64,000 nt of DNA from Candidatus Mailhella excrementigallinarum. GTDB lineage: Bacteria > Desulfobacterota > Desulfovibrionia > Desulfovibrionales > Desulfovibrionaceae. The DNA lies in NCBI GenBank assembly GCA_944324075.1, contig CALUUZ010000004.1:62001-126000 (forward strand), written 5' to 3'. Below the pieces are notes generated by a model. The model was not told the DNA's origin and searched no databases. It saw nothing but the letters and a program-made list of their open reading frames with translations. The first letter of the stretch is position 1. Every line of letters starts with the position of its first letter. This document shows positions 6,074 to 60,250 of the stretch, piece after piece. Made by a program: the position numbers and the translations under genes.

Positions 6074-6874
6074 ATGACAGAATCCAAAGGCTACCGTAAT
6101 CCTCTTGTCGGCCGTATCGCACAGGTACTGGATTATCTGGCGCGCAACGAAGCGGCCCTTCCCGCCATCGTGCGCGATCTCGGCCTGCCGAAAACCAGCG
6201 CCTATGTGCTGCTTCAGTCTCTGCTTGATGTCGGCTATGTGCGGCTGCTGCCCAACGGCAAAACCTATGCTCTGGGCTTCAAGCTCTATGAAATAGGCAC
6301 CCTTGCCGCCGGGCGCATCAATCTGCGCGATCTGGCCATGCCTCACCTTGTGGAGTTGCGGGACGCCATAGACCTGACCTGCCATCTGGGCTGTCTTGAC
6401 GGCATGGAGGCCTTTTATCTGATCAAGCTGCAGCCGACCAACAACAATCTCCAGATTAACTCATGGGAAGGCAAGAGAATCTCCCTCTACTCCTCCGGCG
6501 TGGGTAAAGTTCTGCTTGCCTGGCAGCCCCCGGAAGAGCAGACCCGCATTGTCTCGCAACTGCATATGGAGGCCATTACGCCGCATACAATCACCTGTCC
6601 CGATGTCCTTCTCAACCATCTTGCCGATATCCGCCGCCGCATGTGGGCCATGGACAACGAAGAGGACGGACTGGGGATACGCTGCGTGGCCATGCCCGTC
6701 TTTTCCGTGGACGGCCGCGTTTCCGCAGCGGTCAGCGCCTCCGGGCCGCTTCAGCAGATCGACGGCGACATGACCGGGCTGCTGAAGGCGCTGAACAGGG
6801 CCGCCCGGGCCATTACCGCCGCGCTCGGAGGCAGCTATCCTCCTCCCCGGGATATCGGGGCAGTTCAGGTTTAG
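6074..6874 (+). CDS. IclR-family transcriptional regulator
   Basis: A 266-residue IclR-type regulator: N-terminal winged helix-turn-helix (residues about 12-65, IAQVLDYLARNEAALP and LPKTSAYVLLQSLL) followed by an effector domain (about 80-255) with the usual SGVGKVLLAW and GLGIRCVAMPVF stretches. It sits directly after the transporter and before the aldolase gene, so it probably controls the 1.9-8.1 kb catabolic cluster in response to its sugar acid. Its own stop codon, TAG, shares its G with the first base of a family A repeat. Confidence 0.88.
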   Translation: MTESKGYRNPLVGRIAQVLDYLARNEAALPAIVRDLGLPKTSAYVLLQSLLDVGYVRLLPNGKTYALGFKLYEIGTLAAGRINLRDLAMPHLVELRDAIDLTCHLGCLDGMEAFYLIKLQPTNNNLQINSWEGKRISLYSSGVGKVLLAWQPPEEQTRIVSQLHMEAITPHTITCPDVLLNHLADIRRRMWAMDNEEDGLGIRCVAMPVFSVDGRVSAAVSASGPLQQIDGDMTGLLKALNRAARAITAALGGSYPPPRDIGAVQV

Positions 6875-7053
6875 AGCGTTTTGCTCTCGAAAATATCTGC
6901 CGGCCAGAACCCTATATTCCGGCTCGCAGGTTTCACGCGTCCGCCGGAGCCGGACGCCGCAAGTGAATTGCGGCGACGCCGGAGAAGATGGGATGTCGCG
7001 GCGGAGCCCCGCTTCGCTTGACTCCGGGAACATTTTCAAACCGAAAATGTTCC
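6874..7053 (+). repeat. Family A element, copy 2 (near complete)
   Basis: Best forward copy. It begins GAGCGTTTTGCTCTCG right at the TAG stop of the IclR gene, continues through CTGCCGGCC, TTTCACGC, CCGCCGGAG and the core hairpin GCCGCAAGTGAATTGCGGC, then GCGGCGGAG...GACTCCG. It ends with the right terminal hairpin, in which CATTTTC pairs with GAAAATG. The rest of the spacer to 7193 shows nothing else of note. Confidence 0.85.
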
Positions 7054-11906: not shown

Positions 11907-12168
11907 TAAAAATTGGCTCTGTCCCAGAACCGTGTTGGTAGCGTTGCGCGGGGCATATGGTTTTGCCCCGGCACAGGCGGCAATACTCATTGCCGCAAAG
12001 ACAGCCCGTGTTCCACACGGACAAAGGCGTCATGCATCCATGGCCGGCTCGCTTGCGCCTTCTGGCGGCAAAGCCGCCCGAAGGCTCCGCTCCATACGCC
12101 GCTGACGCGGCGTGCCTCCGGCGGTCAAGGTTATGTTCAACACTATTCTGCAACAAAGCCTAAAAATT
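11907..12168. mobile_element. Family B: IS6-like MITE, copy 1, with 8-bp target duplication
   Basis: A 246-bp non-coding insertion (11915-12160) flanked by exact 8-bp repeats TAAAAATT (11907-11914 and 12161-12168). Its ends are imperfect inverted repeats: GGCTCTGTCCCAGAA on the left, and on the right the complement of GGCTTTGTTGCAGAA. The sequence GGCTCTGTTGCA and an 8-bp duplication are both marks of IS6-family elements. No transposase is present, so movement would need an enzyme supplied elsewhere. It separates the enoate reductase from the TRAP genes. Confidence 0.85.
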
Positions 12169-13293: not shown

Positions 13294-13478
13294 CATGTTT
13301 CTGTGCGCAGCCGCCCCCCCATATCGCCTGCCGAGTCCGCAGCCGACAAACAGGGGGTGTGCGGCTCCCCTTCATGGGGAGTGGGGCTGGAAAAAACGAT
13401 TTCACCGGCCTTCCCGTCCCGGCAGGGACGCTTTCTCCTGCGGGGAGAGTTTTCAAACCATAAATGAATTTTTGATGA
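13294..13478 (+). repeat. Family C repeat, degenerate copy
   Basis: Shares with the copies at 18827 and 29424 the GTTTC start, the CCGCAGCCGACAAACAGGGGG block, ACGATTTCACCGGC, the GGGGAGAG block and the end CAAACCATAAATGAATTTTTGATGA. It lies between the TRAP binding-protein and permease genes and ends within 13 bases of the permease start. Confidence 0.65.
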
Positions 13479-18787: not shown

Positions 18788-18826
18788 CCCTCCCTTTCCA
18801 AGACTTTTATCTGAGGAAACGCTGAT

Positions 18827-19007
18827 GTTTCAATCCACAGTCGCCCCATCCGCCGACTGACTCCGCAACCGACGGACAGGGGGCGCGCGGATTGCCCCTC
18901 CCTGAAGGGAAGGATTGCGGAGAAGGATTTCATCGGCTTCGCCGTCTTGTCAACTCATCTTTTCCCCCTGAGGGGAGAGGTCTCAAACCGCAAAGGAATT
19001 TTTGATG
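18827..19007 (+). repeat. Family C repeat, copy 1
   Basis: About 180 bp, from GTTTCAATCCACAGTCGCCC to CAAAGGAATTTTTGATGA. It is strongly similar to the copy at 29424-29602, with shared blocks GACGGACAG, ATTGCCCCTCCCT, AAGGATTTCATCGGCTTCGC and TTTTCCCCCTGAGGGG. The start resembles the end of type I-C CRISPR repeats, but there is no array. Confidence 0.75.
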
Positions 19008-19008
19008 A

Positions 19009-19165
19009 AAACGTTTCCTGCGGCTCTGCTCCGCGAGACCGTCCGCAAGCCGTGAACAGGAAACATTTACTTTTCCAGTTAAATGACCGAGTTGGCATAC
19101 ATTTCCCAAAGAGGCAAAAGCCTCTTTGGACACGGAGCTGATTTATTCGCAAAATAAATCAGCGG
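19009..19165 (+). repeat. Family D repeat, copy 1
   Basis: About 160 bp, inverted relative to the copy at 58849-59021. Shared blocks include CGTTTCCTGCGG, GTGAACAGGAAACATTTACTTTTCC, GTTGGCAT, TTTCCCAAAG...CTTTGG and the hairpin formed by GCTGATTTATT and AATAAATCAGC. Confidence 0.75.
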
Positions 19166-19257
19166 AGTCGGACAAGGCGAGATTCCGGCGGAGGCGTGCA
19201 ACCTGCGGACCAGAACACAGGGTCTGGCCCGCAGATATTTTCGAGAGCAAAATGCTC
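19162..19257 (-). repeat. Family A element, copy 3 (partial)
   Basis: Reverse-oriented partial copy abutting the family D repeat: GGAGTCGGACAAGGCGAGA, then CCGGCGGAGGCGT, ACCTGCGGACC, and the terminus GCAGATATTTTCGAGAGCAA followed by AATGCTC. The core hairpin is deleted. Confidence 0.7.
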
Positions 19258-23055: not shown

Positions 23056-23118
23056 AGGCTTTTCCTTCGTGAAACGAACCATAACGCAATGGCGGCCGTG
23101 CGACGTCCCCTGCCGGGC

Positions 23119-23220
23119 GCAGCCGCAATTCCCCTGCGGCGTACAGTTCCGGCTTCAGGCGTGAAACCTGCGGGCCGGAACACGGGGTGTCCTGCCGCAG
23201 ATATTTTCAGTCACAAAACA
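23119..23220 (-). repeat. Family A element, copy 4 (partial)
   Basis: Reverse-oriented part: GCCGCAATTCCCCTGCGGCG (core hairpin, altered loop), GGCTTCAGGCGTGAAACCTG, CGGGCCGGAACA and the decayed terminus CCGCAGATATTTTCAGTCAC. It lies upstream of the fliD promoter. Confidence 0.7.
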
Positions 23221-27108: not shown

Positions 27109-27148
27109 GAAGACTCCCGTGTTCTGGCCGAGAGCCGGATACCCCTGA

Positions 27149-27313
27149 AGTGTTTTGCTCTTGAAAATATCTGCCGGCAGGACCCTGCGCTCCGGCCGCA
27201 GGTTTCACGCCGTCGCCGGAGCTTTACGCCGCAAGTGAATTGCGCCTGCTCCAGCGGCGCGGCGGAGTCTCGCTTCGCTTGACTCCGGGAGCATTTTCAA
27301 AACGAAAGTGCTC
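27149..27313 (+). repeat. Family A element, copy 5
   Basis: Forward copy from AGTGTTTTGCTCTTGAAAAT to the right terminus, GCATTTTCAAAACGAAAGTG ending in CTC. It is followed directly by TA. The core hairpin is shortened (GCCGCAAGTGAATTGCG, then divergent). Confidence 0.8.
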
Positions 27314-27523
27314 TAACTGTTGCAGCTTTCGTGTTCCGCCGCGTATGTATTCCATCCGGAAGCCTTCCGGAATGTTCCCCGCATGCCGGAATCGGCTCTC
27401 CTGCTTGCGCGTCTTATCATGCCGGGGCCACCTTGAACGGATTCATGGCAGAAAATGCTGTTCAACATCTGTGCCATGACTGCCCTGTTCCGTGTTTTTC
27501 AGCATCATGATCAGCAACGCCCC

Positions 27524-27699
27524 GGCATTTCGCTCTTGAAATGCCTTGCGGAGTCAAACAGGGCGAGACTCCGCCGCGATGCCCCCTTCTCCGGTGTCGC
27601 CGCAATTCACTTGCGGCATCAGGCTCAGGCTTCAGGCGTGAAACCTGCGAGCCGGAACATGGGCCAGGGCCGCAGGATATTTTCAAAGGAAAAACGCTC
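27524..27699 (-). repeat. Family A element, copy 6
   Basis: Reverse copy with both termini: GGCATTTCGCTCTTGAAATG at one end and GATATTTTCAAAGGAAAAAC then GCTC at the other. The core is GCCGCAATTCACTTGCGGC, with the GGCGTGAAACCTGCGAGCCG block complete. Confidence 0.8.
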
Positions 27700-27930
27700 T
27701 GCGATGAATCCGGTTTTCTCCGCCATATTCCGTTGAAATCCGAACCGCCGAACATTGACATGACCCCGATTCCCTGCCAGAAAATCTGCTGGCCCCTGCG
27801 GAACGCATCTTCCCGCAGCCTTCCCGGAAATACGGCGGGCCCCTTTTTCATGCGTGGCGCACCCTGAACATGCGGCGCAGCCCCCCGACGGGCGCCCCGC
27901 AGGACATACAGGCATGAACAGCAGAGCAGG

Positions 27931-28004
27931 CGACGGCTTCAGGCGTGGAACCTGCGAATCAGGAACGGAGTCTGGCTGGCAGACAGGTCAACAGCAGAAT
28001 GCTC
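27931..28004 (-). repeat. Family A element, copy 7 (decayed)
   Basis: Reverse partial copy: GGCTTCAGGCGTGGAACCTG, a CTGGCTGGCAGACAGG block and the terminus CAGAATGCTCC. It lies about 120 bases ahead of tyrS. Confidence 0.55.
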
Positions 28005-28127
28005 CGGCTTCTGAAAGGCAAACAGTCATGGCGCGGTTTATGAAAACAGGGATGAGTCTCGTCCGCCCGGTCCCGGAAACAGTTTCAAGCAGAAAGGGTT
28101 CCAAAATTTTTTGCAAGGAGAATATCG

Positions 28128-29380: not shown

Positions 29381-29423
29381 GTGCTGGCGCATTCATGTCA
29401 GAAAACCATGTGAGAGGCAATAT

Positions 29424-29602
29424 GTTTCAATCCACAGTCGCCCCATCCGTCGACTGACTGAAGCAGCCGACGGACAGAGGTCGTGCGCATTGCCCCTCCC
29501 TTCAGGGAGGGGGTACGGAAAAGGATTTCATCGGCTTCGCCGTCGTGTCAACCACTCTTTTCCCCCTGAGGGGGGGCTCAAACCATAAAGGAATTTTTGA
29601 TG
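29424..29602 (+). repeat. Family C repeat, copy 2
   Basis: Nearly full-length match to the copy at 18827-19007, starting with the same GTTTCAATCCACAGTCGCCC and ending GGAATTTTTGATGA. The central hairpin here is GCCCCTCCCTTCAGGGAGGG. It sits between tyrS and a family A copy. Confidence 0.75.
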
Positions 29603-29624
29603 AACAGGCATGGGGATATTGCGG

Positions 29625-29793
29625 CTTCAAAATGCTCCAGAAGTCGAGCAGCGCGGGACTCCGCCGCGACGCCCCCTTCTCCGGCGTCACCGCAATTCAC
29701 TTGCGGCGTAAGGCTTCGGCTTCAGGCGTGAAATCACCTGCGTGCCGGAACATAGGATCCTGACTGGCAGATATTTTCGAGAGCAAAACGTTC
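29625..29793 (-). repeat. Family A element, copy 8
   Basis: Reverse copy with TTCAAAATGCTCC at one end and GATATTTTCGAGAGCAAAAC then GTTC at the other. The core is ACCGCAATTCACTTGCGGCG. It stops 16 bases from the stop of the glycosyltransferase gene on the other strand. Confidence 0.8.
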
Positions 29794-29809
29794 TGGATAT
29801 TTCGGTGTG

Positions 29810-33107: not shown

Positions 33108-33472
33108 TTTCGGGAGTCGGACTGTAAGCCGGGTTCTGTTCCCCGCTCTGAAGCGGAGCGGCCGTCATTCCTCTAGGAACGCGGTTGCCCGCGCCCTCAA
33201 GCAACCTACCCGGAAACCACAGATCGGGCCGATCGGTTTCCCTATTTGGTCTTGCTTCGAATGGGGCTTGCCTGGCCTGCCGTGTCGCCACGGCAGCCGG
33301 TGGTCTCTTGCACCACCCTTTCACCCTTACCGTCATGAAGACGGCGGTCTGCTCTCTGTTGCGCTTGCCGAAGATCACTCTTCCCGGATGTTATCCGGCA
33401 TTCCGCCCTGTGAAGCCCGGACTTTCCTCCCCGCGTGGATACGCGCAGCGACGGCCCGTCCGGCTCCCGAAA
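33108..33472 (-). ncRNA. rnpB: RNase P RNA, bacterial class A
   Basis: The catalytic RNA that trims the 5' ends of precursor tRNAs. On the minus strand the universal 5' block GAGGAAAGTCCGGGCTTCAC lies near 33410-33429. The 3' block ACAGAACCCGGCTTAC lies near 33122-33137, and the P15 loop region, GGTAG-type GGGTAGGTTGCTTGAGGGC, is near 33200. The two ends pair as helix P1 (TTTCGGGAGCCGGAC with GTCCGACTCCCGAAA, one mismatch), which sets the limits to within a few bases. It lies between the zinc-ribbon protein gene and ispDF. Confidence 0.95.
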
Positions 33473-36744: not shown

Positions 36745-36813
36745 GCTTCGGTTTCAGACGAAACCTCCGATGGAACACGGGACTGGCCGGGGGAAGTTTT
36801 CAATCATGACACG
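36745..36813 (-). repeat. Family A remnant
   Basis: A decayed reverse-oriented piece: GCTTCGGTTTCAGACGAAAC, GGAACACGGGACTGGCCGGG and AGTTTTCAATCATGACACGC follow the order of the family A outer half. It lies between the binding-protein terminator and the first permease gene. Confidence 0.45.
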
Positions 36814-36862
36814 CTCCATGGATAACATTTCCGGCGCAATGACGCCGCGACGGGGAGTTGGC

Positions 36863-43496: not shown

Positions 43497-43541
43497 CTGC
43501 AGGCAGGAAAGCGTGAATCTGCCTCAGCAGCCTTCCGCACT

Positions 43542-43687
43542 GAACATATCCGCCAGCCGGACGCCGGTTTGCGCCGCAGATTTCACGCCGCCGCTCCATG
43601 CCGCAAGCGGATTGCGACGACACCCGGCAGGGGGCGAGGAGTCTTGTTTCATCCGACTCCCTGGAGCATTTCAATGACGAAATGCTC
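43542..43687 (+). repeat. Family A element, copy 9
   Basis: Forward copy with a decayed left end (GAACATATCCGCCAGCCGGA), the TTTCACGCC block, the weakened core GCCGCAAGCGGATTGCGACG and an intact right end (GGAGCATTTCAATGACGAAA then TGCTC). The TA that follows, read from the other strand, opens the TAG stop of the YhiN gene. Confidence 0.75.
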
Positions 43688-44922
43688 TAGCACGGGTTGC
43701 CGGCAGAAAATGCGCACTGTCCCGTTTTCTTCTGTGCGGCCATGGCCCGCGCTGCGGTAAATGCCGAAGCCAGCGCCCAGTGGATATTATAACCTCCAAG
43801 AAGGCCGGTCATGTCCATGACCTCGCCGCAGAAAAAAAGCCCCGGCACAAATCGGCTTTCCATACCCGGCCCCAGTTCCCGCACGTCAACGCCTCCGGCG
43901 GCGGCTTCCGCCCTGCGCATACCCTCCGTTCCCGAAGGGATGACTCTGTGCGCGTGAACGGCGGAACACAGGCGTTCCCTGTCTTTTTTTCCCAATTCCG
44001 CAACCCTGCGTCCTGCCACATCCGGCGGAGCAAGCCGCTCGGCCAGACGCGCGGGCATACGCCGCGCCAGCAGCGTTCGGACAAGCTGCCTGCCGTTCTC
44101 CGGCTGGTGCATAAGTGCAAGCAGACTTTCTTCCGGCAAAAAATCCACGGTGAGAGCCCTTCCCGCTCTCCAGCGGCAGGAGGCAGACAGCGCCGCCGGA
44201 CCGCTGAATCCACGATGTGTAAACATGAGGGAGCGCGCGCCACAGGGATCGAAAACGGGGCCGTTATCCGTATCCACACTCAGTTTCGCGGACAGGCTGA
44301 TACCCTCCAGTCCATGCAGAGGCCAATCCGGAGGCATGACAAAAGGGACAAGAGCGGGACGGAAAGGGACGACACGATGCCCCAGCCGGGCAGCCAGATG
44401 TGCTCCGCAATCCCCCGCGCCGGCCTGTGGACAGGCGGGACCGCCGCAGGCAATCAGCATCCGGGGGGCGGAAAAAGAGTTTTCCCCGCAGGCCACACGA
44501 AATTCCCCTTCCTCCCGCAAACACTCACGAACAGAACAGCCTGAAAAAAAACTCGCGCCGACGGCGAGCGCGGCATCCAGCATCCGGCGGGCAAGGACGG
44601 AAGCCGGCTCAAGGCAGAAAATCTGGCCGAACTCCCGTTCTTCCCAGGGAATACGCAATTCGGCCAGCAGAGACAAGGCCGCGTCTGTTCCGAAGCGGCG
44701 CAGCGGCCCCCTGCAGAACCCGGGCGCTTCACTGACGAAATGCTCGGAAGAAAGATTCCGGTTGGTAATATTGCCCATGCCGCCCCCGGCCATGGACAGC
44801 TTGCGTCCCGCTCTGTCCTGCGCTTCGAGCAGCACGGCGGAAAGGCCGCGCCGACCGGCTTCACGCGCGGCGAAAAGCCCCCCTGGCCCGGCGCCGAGAA
44901 TAATGACGTCAAAGTGCTTCAT
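43687..44922 (-). CDS. YhiN/HI0933-family NAD(P)/FAD-dependent oxidoreductase
   Basis: A 411-residue flavoprotein of the HI0933/YhiN/BaiN family. The N-terminal FAD motif is IILGAGPGGLFAAREAGRRG (about residues 7-26). AGGGMGNITN (about 50) and the C-terminal GEVMDMTGLLGGYNIHWALA loop are hallmarks of the family. Members have been linked to bile-acid C=C reduction (BaiN) or are uncharacterised, so the substrate is open. The stop codon TAG is joined to the end of a family A repeat. It is transcribed towards the iron exporter. Confidence 0.85.
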   Translation of the reverse strand: MKHFDVIILGAGPGGLFAAREAGRRGLSAVLLEAQDRAGRKLSMAGGGMGNITNRNLSSEHFVSEAPGFCRGPLRRFGTDAALSLLAELRIPWEEREFGQIFCLEPASVLARRMLDAALAVGASFFSGCSVRECLREEGEFRVACGENSFSAPRMLIACGGPACPQAGAGDCGAHLAARLGHRVVPFRPALVPFVMPPDWPLHGLEGISLSAKLSVDTDNGPVFDPCGARSLMFTHRGFSGPAALSASCRWRAGRALTVDFLPEESLLALMHQPENGRQLVRTLLARRMPARLAERLAPPDVAGRRVAELGKKDRERLCSAVHAHRVIPSGTEGMRRAEAAAGGVDVRELGPGMESRFVPGLFFCGEVMDMTGLLGGYNIHWALASAFTAARAMAAQKKTGQCAFSAGNPC

Positions 44923-45130: not shown

Positions 45131-45339
45131 CGGAGTGAGGCTCTGTTGCAGAAGCGTGTTGGTGGCGTTGCGCGAGGCGTACGGTTCCGCTCCGGCCGCG
45201 AGGCGGCAACATGCGTTGCAGCAAAGGCAGCCCGTGTTTTCCACACGGGCAAATGCAACATGCATCCCCGGCCGGATCGCTTGCGCCTCCGGCGGTCAAG
45301 GTTATTTTCACCACAATTCTGCAACAGAGCGCGGAATGA
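45131..45339. mobile_element. Family B: IS6-like MITE, copy 2, with near-perfect 8-bp target duplication
   Basis: A 193-bp element (45139-45331) whose ends are inverted repeats: GGCTCTGTTGCAGAA on the left and TTCTGCAACAGAGC on the right. It is flanked by CGGAGTGA (45131-45138) and CGGAATGA (45332-45339), 7 of 8 identical. Its interior matches copy 1 at 11915 but lacks about 53 bp between GCTTGCGCC and CCTCCGGCGGTCAAGG. Confidence 0.85.
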
Positions 45340-45418: not shown

Positions 45419-46690
45419 ATGGACATCAGCGGTCTCGGAACATACAGCAGCATTCCTCTCGGACTCGACTTTTCCTTCAATGGCGGCGACTACCGCGGAA
45501 GAAAAGGGTCTGCAGGCATATCCCTTGATCTCGGCAAGTCGACGGATTCAACCGGACTTCGTCTTTCCGACGAAGACAAGCGGCTCATCCGGGAACTGCA
45601 AAAACGGGATCAGGAAGTCCGCGCGCACGAACGCGCCCACAAAACGGCGGCGGGAAGTCTTGCCAGAGGTTCTGCAACCTATACCTACCAGATTGGTCCT
45701 GACGGCAGACGTTATGCCATAGGAGGAGAAGTCCATATTGACGTCTCCCCCGGCAGCACACCGGAAGAAAGTCTCGAAAAGGCGCGCAGAATCCGGTCCG
45801 CAGCATCCGCTCCCTCCGAGCCTTCCGCACAGGATCATTCCGTTGCGTCAGACGCAGCCAGGCTTGAAGCCGAAGCCCGCAAGGAACTTCAGGAAAACCG
45901 GCGAGAGGACGGGCAGAGCCGATCCAGTCTGGACGGGCCTGTCAAAGGCGTCAGCGGCCCGCCGGAACTGGGCGGACCGGCGGAAAGCGTCAGCGGCCCG
46001 CCCCGGCAGCTTTTGCGCGGTACGGACAGCTTTGGTCATATCGTCTGGCCGGAGAATGCCGCAACCATCAGGAAGGCTTCCCGGCTCCGCACCGCCGCTG
46101 AAGACGAAGCCCTCATCAATGCCCAGGCGGCCCAAAAGCAGGCTTTTGCCGCGCAGGACGCGCAAATTTATGGACTGGAAGCTGCGGATCAGGCCTCGGT
46201 GGACGCGGCATTCTCCATCGCGCTGAACGGCAGACTTGCCGACGCTCATGCCGCATGGCAACGGGGTGACGCCCTTGCGGCCGACGCGCGTTTTGCGGCG
46301 GATGCCGCCCTTGCCTCACGTCATGCGTTCCTTGCCGCGCAGGCAGGTAATGTCGCGGCAGTCGATCCTCTGCGGGACGGCCTCGCAGCATCCGGGGCGG
46401 CAGGAACCTATCCCGCGGATCGTCCTTCCGATGCGGTGCTTGCAGCCCAGGGTGTCCAATCGCCTTCAGCAGTGTCCGGCGCTGCCGCCTTCACCCCTTA
46501 TGCCGACCAGGACCTGGGTTCTGGCAGGGGAACCTTTGACCTCTCCTCCGGCTACCTCTACGGCCGGAATGAGGAATATTCAGCCTCCGCCCTCGATCTG
46601 CGCCGCGCCGCCCAGGCTTATGCCGACGCCACCCCCGGAACCATGCTTGTTCCCTGCGGCCTGGGCACAGGCATCTCCCTGCAGGTTTAG
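45419..46690 (+). CDS. SprA-related putative metalloprotease (CJM1_0395 family)
   Basis: A 423-residue protein with the SprA-related signature (PF12118) at residues about 62-120: VRAHERAHKTAAG, a HExxH-like zinc motif, followed by YTYQIGPDGRRYAIGGEVHID. The rest is an Ala/Gly/Ser-rich low-complexity region with short repeats such as KGVSGPPELGGPAESVSGPP, probably disordered. No signal peptide is seen. The family is found in motile Proteobacteria but its job is unknown. A sigma-28-like promoter suggests late flagellar expression. ATG at 45419 is chosen (AGAGG ahead) over 45401. The TAG stop shares its G with a family A copy. Confidence 0.75.
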   Translation: MDISGLGTYSSIPLGLDFSFNGGDYRGRKGSAGISLDLGKSTDSTGLRLSDEDKRLIRELQKRDQEVRAHERAHKTAAGSLARGSATYTYQIGPDGRRYAIGGEVHIDVSPGSTPEESLEKARRIRSAASAPSEPSAQDHSVASDAARLEAEARKELQENRREDGQSRSSLDGPVKGVSGPPELGGPAESVSGPPRQLLRGTDSFGHIVWPENAATIRKASRLRTAAEDEALINAQAAQKQAFAAQDAQIYGLEAADQASVDAAFSIALNGRLADAHAAWQRGDALAADARFAADAALASRHAFLAAQAGNVAAVDPLRDGLAASGAAGTYPADRPSDAVLAAQGVQSPSAVSGAAAFTPYADQDLGSGRGTFDLSSGYLYGRNEEYSASALDLRRAAQAYADATPGTMLVPCGLGTGISLQV

Positions 46691-46872
46691 AGCATTCCGT
46701 TCAGGAAGCGCTCTGCGGAATCGAGCAGGACGAGACTCATCTCCGCTCTCCTTATCCGCAAGGCGCTGCGTGCTGATGGCCGGGGGTACCGCGACCCCTC
46801 CTCCGGTGTCGCCGCAATTCACCTGCGGCGTCAAACTCCGGTGGAGACGTGAAACCTGCGAGCCGGAACACG
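46690..46872 (-). repeat. Family A element, copy 10
   Basis: Reverse copy beginning at the TAG of the SprA-related gene with GAGCATTCCGTTCAGGAAGC then GCTC. It keeps the ACTCATCTCCGCTCTCC insert also seen in copy 1, the core GCCGCAATTCACCTGCGGC, and GGTGGAGACGTGAAACCTGC; the outer terminus is lost. Confidence 0.75.
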
Positions 46873-47640: not shown

Positions 47641-47649
47641 CTTCTTTTC

Positions 47650-47757
47650 AGCATTTCGCCGTTGAGATGTTCCACGGAGTCGGGCAAGGCGAAGCTCCAC
47701 CGCGACGCCCTCTTCCGTATCGCCGCAATTTGCCTGCGGCATACGGTTCCGGCGGAA
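47650..47757 (-). repeat. Family A element, copy 11 (truncated)
   Basis: Reverse copy with GCATTTCGCCGTTGAGATGT at the outer end, GGAGTCGGGCAAGGCGAAGC and the core GCCGCAATTTGCCTGCGGC. It stops at the end of the clpB gene, where the other half is missing. Confidence 0.7.
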
Positions 47758-47760
47758 GGG

Positions 47761-50409: not shown

Positions 50410-50529
50410 ATATTCTTCTCCTTCGGAAAAGCCGTGCTTTCCCAGGACCCGCCGAAACGGAACTGCCGCTTCGGCATCTGAAGTCAGATCGGCGGGACGC
50501 GGGGCAGCGCCCCGATTCCCGGCACGAGA

Positions 50530-50553
50530 GCGTTTCACTGCTGAAATGCCCTA
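50530..50553. repeat. Single family A terminus
   Basis: GAGCGTTTCACTGCTGAAAT matches the terminal hairpin of family A and sits between clpB and cbpM, overlapping the TAG region of cbpM. The rest of the element is absent. Confidence 0.4.
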
Positions 50554-52158: not shown

Positions 52159-52161
52159 TTA

Positions 52162-52291
52162 GCATGTTTCAATAGCGAAATGCTCCCCGGAGTCGCGCAG
52201 GGCGAGTCCCGCCCCTGCTCTCTGATCCATAAAGGGTTTCGCGCTCACGGGCAGGGGCTGGCCGGCAGATACGTTCAATCGCAAAATGCTC
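52162..52291 (-). repeat. Family A element, copy 12 (degenerate), in the nap leader
   Basis: Reverse copy with termini GCATGTTTCAATAGCGAAAT then GCTC and GGCAGATACGTTCAATCGCA then AAATGCTC; the interior is largely replaced. It lies four bases after the sigma-54-like promoter, so it would be transcribed as part of the nap 5' leader. The following 240 bases to napC show nothing else clear. Confidence 0.6.
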
Positions 52292-52529
52292 TGGAGTGAC
52301 AGATGAGTGAGCGTTCGATTTGTGCAAAAATCATCAGGAAACAGACCTGCGGAGCGAGGTCAAGGCTCCGCAGGGCGCAATGTTCCAGCCCCGGGCATGA
52401 ACCTGCGGACCGGAACATCATGCCCCGGCCGCACATCATCCCGGGCTGACATGTTCCAGGATGTTGCGGCCCGGAAAAAAGCCGCCCGTCCCAGGACATG
52501 GGGTCTACCGTTCCAAACAGGAGAATATC

Positions 52530-59021: not shown

Positions 59022-59022
59022 A

Positions 59023-59198
59023 GAGCGTTTTGCTCTCGAAAATATATGCCGGCCGGGCCCCTATGTTCTGGCCCGCAGGTTTCACGCCTCCGCCGGAGCT
59101 GTGCGCCGCAAGTGAATTGCGGCGACACCGGAGAGGGGGCAACGCGGCGGAGTCCCGCTCCGTTCGACTCCGCAGAGCATTTCATGAGCGAAATACTC
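59023..59198 (+). repeat. Family A element, copy 13 (near complete)
   Basis: Forward copy from GAGCGTTTTGCTCTCGAAAA through TATGTTCTGGCCCGCAGG, TTTCACGCCTCCGCCGGAG, the core GCCGCAAGTGAATTGCGGC and GCGGCGGAGTCCCGC to the right end GAGCATTTCATGAGCGAAAT then ACTC. It directly adjoins a family D copy and is flanked by CA and TG. The rest of the spacer to ribB is featureless. Confidence 0.85.
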
Positions 59199-59325
59199 TG
59201 AAACTTTGGCAGCATAATACTGATTGAGGCGCTGTCCCGTCAGGCAGAGTTCCTCTTGATGCTTGAACACAAGTTTCCGGGCGGCCGGTTCTTTCAACCC
59301 CATCCGCCCGGAATGCCGGCTGTCT

Positions 59326-59973: not shown

Positions 59974-60062
59974 GATACGTTCTCCTTGCGGAAAAGATTC
60001 AGGCATCAGGGCGACACACAGGAAGGAGGGGAAAACGCCCGGGAACCGGACGACAAAAGACC

Positions 60063-60200
60063 GATCTCTTCCATCCGGACTGTTACCGTCGGCTCCGGAT
60101 TTACACCGGATCGGCATTTTCCCCCATGGAAAAACGCTCGCGGGCTTTCCGGACCCTGCCGGATTACCGCCGGTGGGGACTTTCACCCCGCCCTGAGATG
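60063..60200 (-). promoter_or_regulatory. FMN riboswitch (RFN element) controlling ribB
   Basis: On the minus strand the conserved RFN blocks appear in order: GGGCGGGGTGAAAGTCCCCA, CCGGCGGTAATCCGG, GATCCGGTGTAAATCCGGAG, and CCGACGGTAACAGTCCGGAT followed by GGAAGAGAT. The closing helix is ATCTC with GAGAT. The 90 bases between the aptamer and the ribB start would hold the expression platform, probably acting on the ribosome site. Confidence 0.93.
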
Positions 60201-60250
60201 AAAAAAGAATACGCCACACACAATTCCTGTCAAGAAGCGCAGATCATGAA

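Follow-up and report, generated by a model that had tools for sequence, protein, structure and literature searches.

The window analysed here is a stretch of 64,000 nucleotides, bases 62001-126000 of contig C4 in the genome of Candidatus Mailhella excrementigallinarum (G000; 3.71 Mb in 51 contigs), and it contains 16 copies or fragments of a short repeat designated element A. When 30 genome copies (including three from the window) are aligned, the element separates into three modules, namely L (the left end, 66 positions), C (the core, 47 positions) and R (the right end, 68 positions), and a profile of each was prepared from the alignment. An earlier note on this DNA had listed the repeat at 13 places in both orientations; all 13 were recovered by a profile built from five aligned window copies (E 1e-57 to 0.003) and also by the module profiles. 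Chaining of the module matches gives eight elements with L, C and R and eight partial ones, including three fragments beyond the earlier list (36760-36816, 50527-50552 and 52395-52430). The window has 40 module matches (14 L, 11 C and 15 R) versus three (1 L, 2 C and 0 R), on the same E-value scale, in 21 control sequences consisting of 20 first-order Markov sequences and the reversed window. The elements are listed below; G006 is a sister species.

1311-1511, + strand: partial L, C and R, with additional sequence ahead of R
6873-7053, + strand: type copy with L (6873-6938), C (6940-6986) and R (6991-7052)
19147-19257, - strand: R and L without core; no module match in the 137-bp orthologous spacer of G006
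23116-23219, - strand: C and L without R
27147-27316, + strand: L, C and R, short core form (TGCTCC behind the core hairpin)
27522-27700, - strand: L, C and R
27929-28103, - strand: decayed copy with L at 27942-28004 and a weak R-like match at 28053-28103 on the other strand (E 0.049)
29613-29794, - strand: L, C and R, a few bases past the end of a family B repeat
36760-36816, - strand: L end fragment, additional to the earlier list
43541-43688, + strand: L, C and R; an R..L pair in corresponding orientation in the orthologous G006 spacer
46687-46872, - strand: R, C and L, long R form
47647-47758, - strand: R and C, L being absent; no module match in the 86-bp orthologous spacer of G006
50527-50552, - strand: R end fragment, matched by the module profile only
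52161-52292, - strand: R and L, differing in the middle
52374-52432, - strand: L fragment, first-hairpin region
59022-59201, + strand: L, C and R, the first genome query; fold -84.3 kcal/mol

Two further high-copy repeats lie alongside. Family B, an intergenic repeat of 183 bp (ATGTTTCAATCCACAGTCGCC...AAAGGAATTTTTGATGA), is found in the window at 29422-29605, 18825-19008 and 13432-13478, with 51 matches in 604 kb and 94 in 1.40 Mb of G000; it also occurs in the Mailhella genome G016 and includes a CCCCCTGAAGGGGG hairpin into which element A has inserted twice. Family C, with ends TGTTCCACACGG...AATTCTGCAACAGAGC, lies at 12008-12159 and 45236-45330 and has 51 matches in 604 kb and 102 in 1.40 Mb; a sequence resembling it splits a family B copy on contig C4 (174830-175132), where positions 136-143 of the B profile are present on both sides. 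Together, the three small families make up ~3.2% of the sampled 1.40 Mb. An Rfam scan of the window returned only a class A RNase P RNA (33109-33467) and an FMN riboswitch (60059-60204) at the start of a ribB-like gene.

Element A is short, present in many copies and dispersed, as MITEs are. In 604 kb of G000, 119 chained elements account for 2.5% of the sequence and 52 have L, C and R, and in 1.404 Mb (38% of the genome), where E-values, which grow with the length of sequence scanned, made the scan stricter, 211 elements account for 2.0% and 100 have all modules. Extrapolation to 3.709 Mb gives about 557 elements, and a 20-base core pattern with at most two mismatches has 252 matches genome-wide (131 and 121 by strand), whereas its backward control has none; the several hundred copies per genome predicted earlier are thus borne out. 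The modules are found in different combinations, as in BOX-type composites: among the 211 elements, LCR occurs 100 times, L 35, LR 22, CL 21, R 17, CR 8 and C 8, and some of the partial copies may be truncations. The full length had been given as 165-185 bp, and the median of 176 bp falls in this range, but the spread is wider, with 58 of 99 two-ended copies between 160 and 190 bp and an earlier set of 60 copies ranging from 95 to 281 bp.

The earlier picture of a palindromic element that is dispersed, has inverted repeats at its termini and shares its borders between copies held across the genome copies. In an alignment of 53 copies both ends are GAGCRTTTYGCTCTYGAAA-like. The L module starts with RGAGCRTTTTGCTCTCGAAAATATCTGC; next come a first hairpin, CTGCCGGCC...GGCCCGCAG, and GGTTTCACGCC. 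The core module contains ACGCCGCAAGTGAATTGCGGC, often inside an outer stem; there are two forms of this module, a long one (GCGACACCGGAGAAGGGGG) and a short one (TGCTCC). The R module has a third hairpin, with GGAGTC opposite GACTCC or TTCAGTC opposite GACTGAA, and the palindrome GAGCATTTC...GAAATGCTC at its end. The arms of the R hairpin are linked, although not strictly, with TTC/GAA in 11, GG/CC in 18 and mixed arms in 10 of the 39 copies, out of 99, that were typed on both sides (p 0.002), and because of this mixing of subtypes the copies look like mosaics. The copy at 59022-59201 folds better than its own shuffles on this strand (z -4.36) and on the other (z -2.64).

Borders were compared in 99 two-ended copies in which each end matches the anchor at at least 6 of 9 bases. 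They conform to YYYR/GAGC on the left and GCTC/YRR on the right (the slash marks the edge of the element), with a pyrimidine at -2, -3 and -4 in 93%, 88% and 76% of the copies and a purine at -1 in 94%, and on the right a pyrimidine at +1 in 92% and purines at +2 and +3 in 89% and 82%. The borders reported earlier as mostly TA, CA or TG are therefore refined to this consensus, the YR dinucleotide being present on both sides in 72 of the 99. No direct target duplication of 2, 3, 4, 5, 6, 8 or 9 bp was found above chance in the 99 copies (z -1.57 to 0.84) and none of 1 to 9 bp in the 60-copy set. Left and right dinucleotides are identical in 19 of the 72 (expected 19.2) and reverse-complementary in 28 (expected 20.0, p 0.026); in this respect the pyrimidine-purine pair at the outer edge acts like a portion of the inverted repeat. 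Two ideas about the target were rejected. Insertion into hairpin loops in general had been prompted by two nested cases, but just 2 of the 99 copies reach a flank complementarity of at least 7 of 8 bases (mean of shuffles 0.94); one of 20 offsets (left from -4, right from +1) has a z of 3.92, which is unexplained and was not used. Insertion beside terminators had examples by eye, but flank folding is the same as in controls (p 0.58; 25 of 35 flanks and 293 of 363 controls kept, windows with at least 25 coding bases being dropped).

The claim that copies lie only between genes is nearly correct. Of 117 elements with two neighbours, among the 119 in 604 kb, 112 are mostly outside genes called with our own simple gene finder, and the rest are not. 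Elements occupy 33 of 59 convergent, 55 of 203 tandem and 13 of 62 divergent spacers (convergent versus divergent, p 8e-5). Within tandem spacers 25 elements run along the direction of the genes and 36 against it, which argues against a strand-bound regulatory role.

Element A is mobile. When it was cut out at 102 copies and the 200-bp flanks were joined, a B-family profile run across the joint restored a family B repeat at three of them:

contig C1, 225928-226106: nested in B; joint CCCTCC, then T, then GGGGGAGAGG
contig C2, 379597-379773: nested in B; joint CCC/TGAGGGG
contig C5, 118217-118383: nested in B; two surplus bases left at one of the borders; B incomplete

The joints on C1 and C2 both lie inside the loop of the same C-run/G-run hairpin of B and contain no repeated bases, with about one base of uncertainty. 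The converse nesting, an intact B copy that splits an element A, is found on C1 (178439-178622). A comparison with the sister species used 20 spacers syntenic with contig C13 of G006, one of them a 15.7-kb stretch in G000; elements occupy 13 of the 20 in G000 and three in G006, a count that may be low because G006 was scanned with G000 profiles. All three are also occupied in G000, with elements in the same orientation in one pair. The proposed comparison of orthologous spacers therefore yielded spacers occupied here and unoccupied in the sister species, but the flanks in G006 are too diverged for empty sites to be read at the base level. Nearest-neighbour identity has a median of 84.7% (98 of the 99 copies); the closest pair (97.0%) lies 1.5 kb apart on C2, and the next (94.7% over 170 bases) is on two contigs with flanks that are unrelated by eye. 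The nested sites, spacer differences and identity values together indicate that the insertions are real, differ between species and are mostly old, and a non-autonomous mobile element is well supported.

The central hairpin recurs in other Mailhella genomes with compensatory changes in its stem. Extending the search to relatives, as the earlier note had proposed, showed the core hairpin in other Desulfovibrionales as well as hundreds of copies in G000: with at most two mismatches it is present in 8 of 19 Mailhella genomes, and when one mismatch is allowed it is found in 4 of 59 genera of Desulfovibrionales (8 of 348 genomes), G000 included in each count. Even with two mismatches allowed, no core is found in G006, the only other genome with an L end; the G006 matches are mostly over L (query positions 1-81), and in the best G006 copy (locus L031) the core hairpin is broken, so the core may be dispensable. 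Among the matches listed outside G000, 35 of 38 two-mismatch cores are compensatory versus ~1.2% expected from our own count of possible double changes, a figure that leaves out the 26 matches of G018 and 3 of the 18 of G017. The changes are C-G to G-C (CGCCGGAAGTGAATTCCGGC) or A-T to G-C (CGCCGCGAGTGAATCGCGGC), and a search for the paired stem identified a further form, GGCGGAAGTGAATTCCGCC, in neighbouring units of the same array in G008. The loop is mostly a constant GTGAA, with GTAAA in G342 and G008 and GTCAA in G008. The core counts across genomes include paralogues, and the events are not independent.

A core alignment was made of 25 of 35 loci, 10 having been dropped by hand. The 25 represent G000 and 10 further genomes, each having been recruited through its likeness to the G000 core; their inner stem is paired in 100% of the sequences, with nine double-changed cells and two pairs changed on both sides. 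Neither its pairing nor its covariation score was reached by any of 500 shuffles, but the number of doubly changed pairs (2) was reached by 102 of 500. The outer stem is 52% paired at a spacing taken from few of the sequences. The covariation that the earlier note suggested looking for is thus present in the inner core stem across genomes but weak for whole copies within G000 (-0.41 of -18.43 kcal/mol, mostly from the right-end subtypes). Mismatches in the core stems of 73 copies are GT in 25 cases and AC in 16, so neither strand is clearly favoured, and strand-specific RNA selection on the core, for which this comparison is not decisive, was set aside. The surroundings of the core vary. A unit like that of G000 is seen by eye on both sides in G132, whereas the flanks of the Desulfovibrio cuneatus copy are, by eye, unlike it, and the units are spaced 151 bp apart in G008 and ~295 bp apart in G018. 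The G018 genome is a single contig; its tandem units lie beside a tRNA gene (L162, 1400-2600), and its core matches are strongly one-stranded (23 versus 3).

The earlier note had suggested looking for a transposase gene flanked by the same ends, and none was found at the Y1 loci or among the six Pfam transposase families searched in G000. IS630 (PF13358), IS4/5 (PF01609), IS110 (PF02371) and IS256 (PF00872) have no match in G000, with positive controls in other genomes, and rve (PF00665) has one weak match below the cut-off. It lies in a decayed transposase remnant on contig C44 (L170, 962-2097), which from its residues we take to be IS481/IS3-like and which is flanked by two copies of element A in the same orientation. 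Y1 (PF01797) has nine matches, three of them with stops, in this genome of 3.7 Mb with no match to four common DDE families. A scan of all nine Y1 loci with the L, C and R profiles identified no L-R pair around a gene, and R modules alone lie near two of them. Two intact Y1 proteins score 144.7 and 148.4 bits against the IS200 model (cut-off 55) and 31.3 and 25.7 bits against the RAYT model (cut-off 80), and the IS200 copies of G000 carry hairpins other than those of element A. None of the 19 Mailhella genomes exceeds the curated RAYT cut-off; 11 have weaker matches. Long pairs of lone L and R ends occur at only four places in the 604 kb scanned. Two of these pairs bear genes, and the one such gene that was compared with Pfam (L125, 7533-8294) has no match there, so an autonomous copy may still exist.

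We lean, with slightly better than even confidence, towards a reading in which element A is a non-coding, non-autonomous L-C-R element that is moved in trans, probably via a folded single strand. It has common borders, RGAGC...GCTC, and inserts as a unit at YY/YRR sites with no detectable duplication, and it is numerous in G000, while one sister species has fewer copies. A single-strand mechanism is suggested by three features: no duplication was seen, the ends fold, and the hairpin is kept through paired changes. A trans-acting enzyme would recognize the folded strand by its end palindromes and core hairpin and would join it into single-stranded or nicked intergenic DNA, which would leave no duplication; copies would persist mainly between convergent genes if selection removes insertions at other places. 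The best-fitting candidate for the mover would be a single-strand (HUH/Y1-like) transposase, although no such partner was found in G000. A bolder version, which we regard as doubtful, is that the A-GTGAA-T hairpin is the recognition site of a single-strand enzyme of the Desulfovibrionaceae that moves different elements across species without duplication and belongs to none of the transposase families tested, so that the elements would form a new class of bacterial mobile element.

IS630 is the usual partner of TA-type MITEs, and the earlier note had considered such a TA-inserting element. An ordinary MITE whose DDE transposase (of the IS630, IS5 or a like family) has been lost and whose 2-bp TA duplication has decayed would account for the terminal inverted repeats and for TA being the commonest right dinucleotide (12 of 40) and the joint commonest on the left (14, with CA also 14), and one copy does lie within ACGCCTA/TAGGCGT. 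We nevertheless consider it unlikely, and the TA-inserting version did not survive the comparison, because the border dinucleotides of the 72 copies are uncorrelated as duplicates, the 99 copies and the sites nested in B have no duplication, and IS630 and the three other DDE families searched lack a match, the weak rve remnant apart. Moreover, C and T are equally frequent at -2 (46% each) and a purine is rare (7%), unlike neutral decay of TA. The resemblance to REP sequences noted earlier is real in appearance: the element is palindromic, intergenic and without detected duplication, its hairpin has compensatory changes, relatives have tandem units, and Y1 proteins and weak RAYT-model matches (11 of 19 genomes) are present. 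Movement by a RAYT, the REP-associated Y1 transposase, is nonetheless very unlikely, since no Mailhella genome reaches the RAYT cut-off and the two Y1 proteins scanned score as IS200.

The remaining explanation is that element A is an RNA element maintained by the host (an attenuator, an RNA-processing signal or an mRNA 3'-end structure) that spreads passively by recombination. Compensatory core variants in Mailhella, the core in three other genera, the preference for convergent spacers and the folding of both strands better than most shuffles are all consistent with this. It would, however, not predict insertion into the unrelated family B, the absence of a clear orientation preference in tandem spacers, or the vacancy in the sister species of most spacers occupied in G000; an Rfam scan of seven loci also placed only FMN and a tRNA above the gathering score, and neither lies within element A. 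On balance we judge an RNA element improbable, and the mobile element moved as a folded strand remains the preferred reading.

IS200/IS605-derived miniature elements have hairpin ends and are not known to cause target duplication, and in both respects they resemble element A, in a genome with IS200-type enzymes; they differ in that the IS200 hairpins of G000 are others and no fixed tetranucleotide stands ahead of element A. The Correia and ERIC MITEs duplicate TA, which was not found for element A, the comparison being by description and not by sequence. They are otherwise similar in length class (Correia 204 bp, excerpt of PMC10969869; ERIC 127 bp, excerpt of PMC3049150), in being mostly intergenic and in reaching hundreds of copies, with 711 of ERIC in Photorhabdus (excerpt of PMC10969869). 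BOX of Streptococcus pneumoniae, as described in an excerpt of PMC3049150, shares composite modules (A-B-C), predicted stem-loops, an excess between convergent genes, insertion into other repeats, and past proliferation with slow present movement, but it duplicates its target and varies in boxB number, whereas element A has no duplication found and usually a single core. REPINs, in the available part of PMC3116915, are likewise inverted palindromes that form hairpins, with compensatory changes and tandem clusters, and GTAG or CGTC tags beside REP palindromes are named in the title of PMC3733652; element A is longer, modular and has RGAGC ends, with no RAYT over the cut-off in the genus. Element A works in a manner analogous to that of MITEs, BOX elements and REPINs but is kept apart from them because, for each, a defining feature was looked for and not found. 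Phages, plasmids and viral contigs have no match to it, and among the papers listed from the open-licence PMC literature, judged by title and the start of the abstract, none is concerned with a repeat of this kind in Mailhella or Desulfovibrio. The ~176-bp element of Mailhella seemingly has not been described so far.

About 2% of the sampled G000 sequence thus belongs to one small family for which no matching transposase was found and no duplication was detected. The recurring hairpin provides a handle for an enzyme search via a co-occurring gene, and element A offers targets for strain typing. Its ~560 natural insertions are a resource on what hairpins do at the gene ends of gut bacteria.
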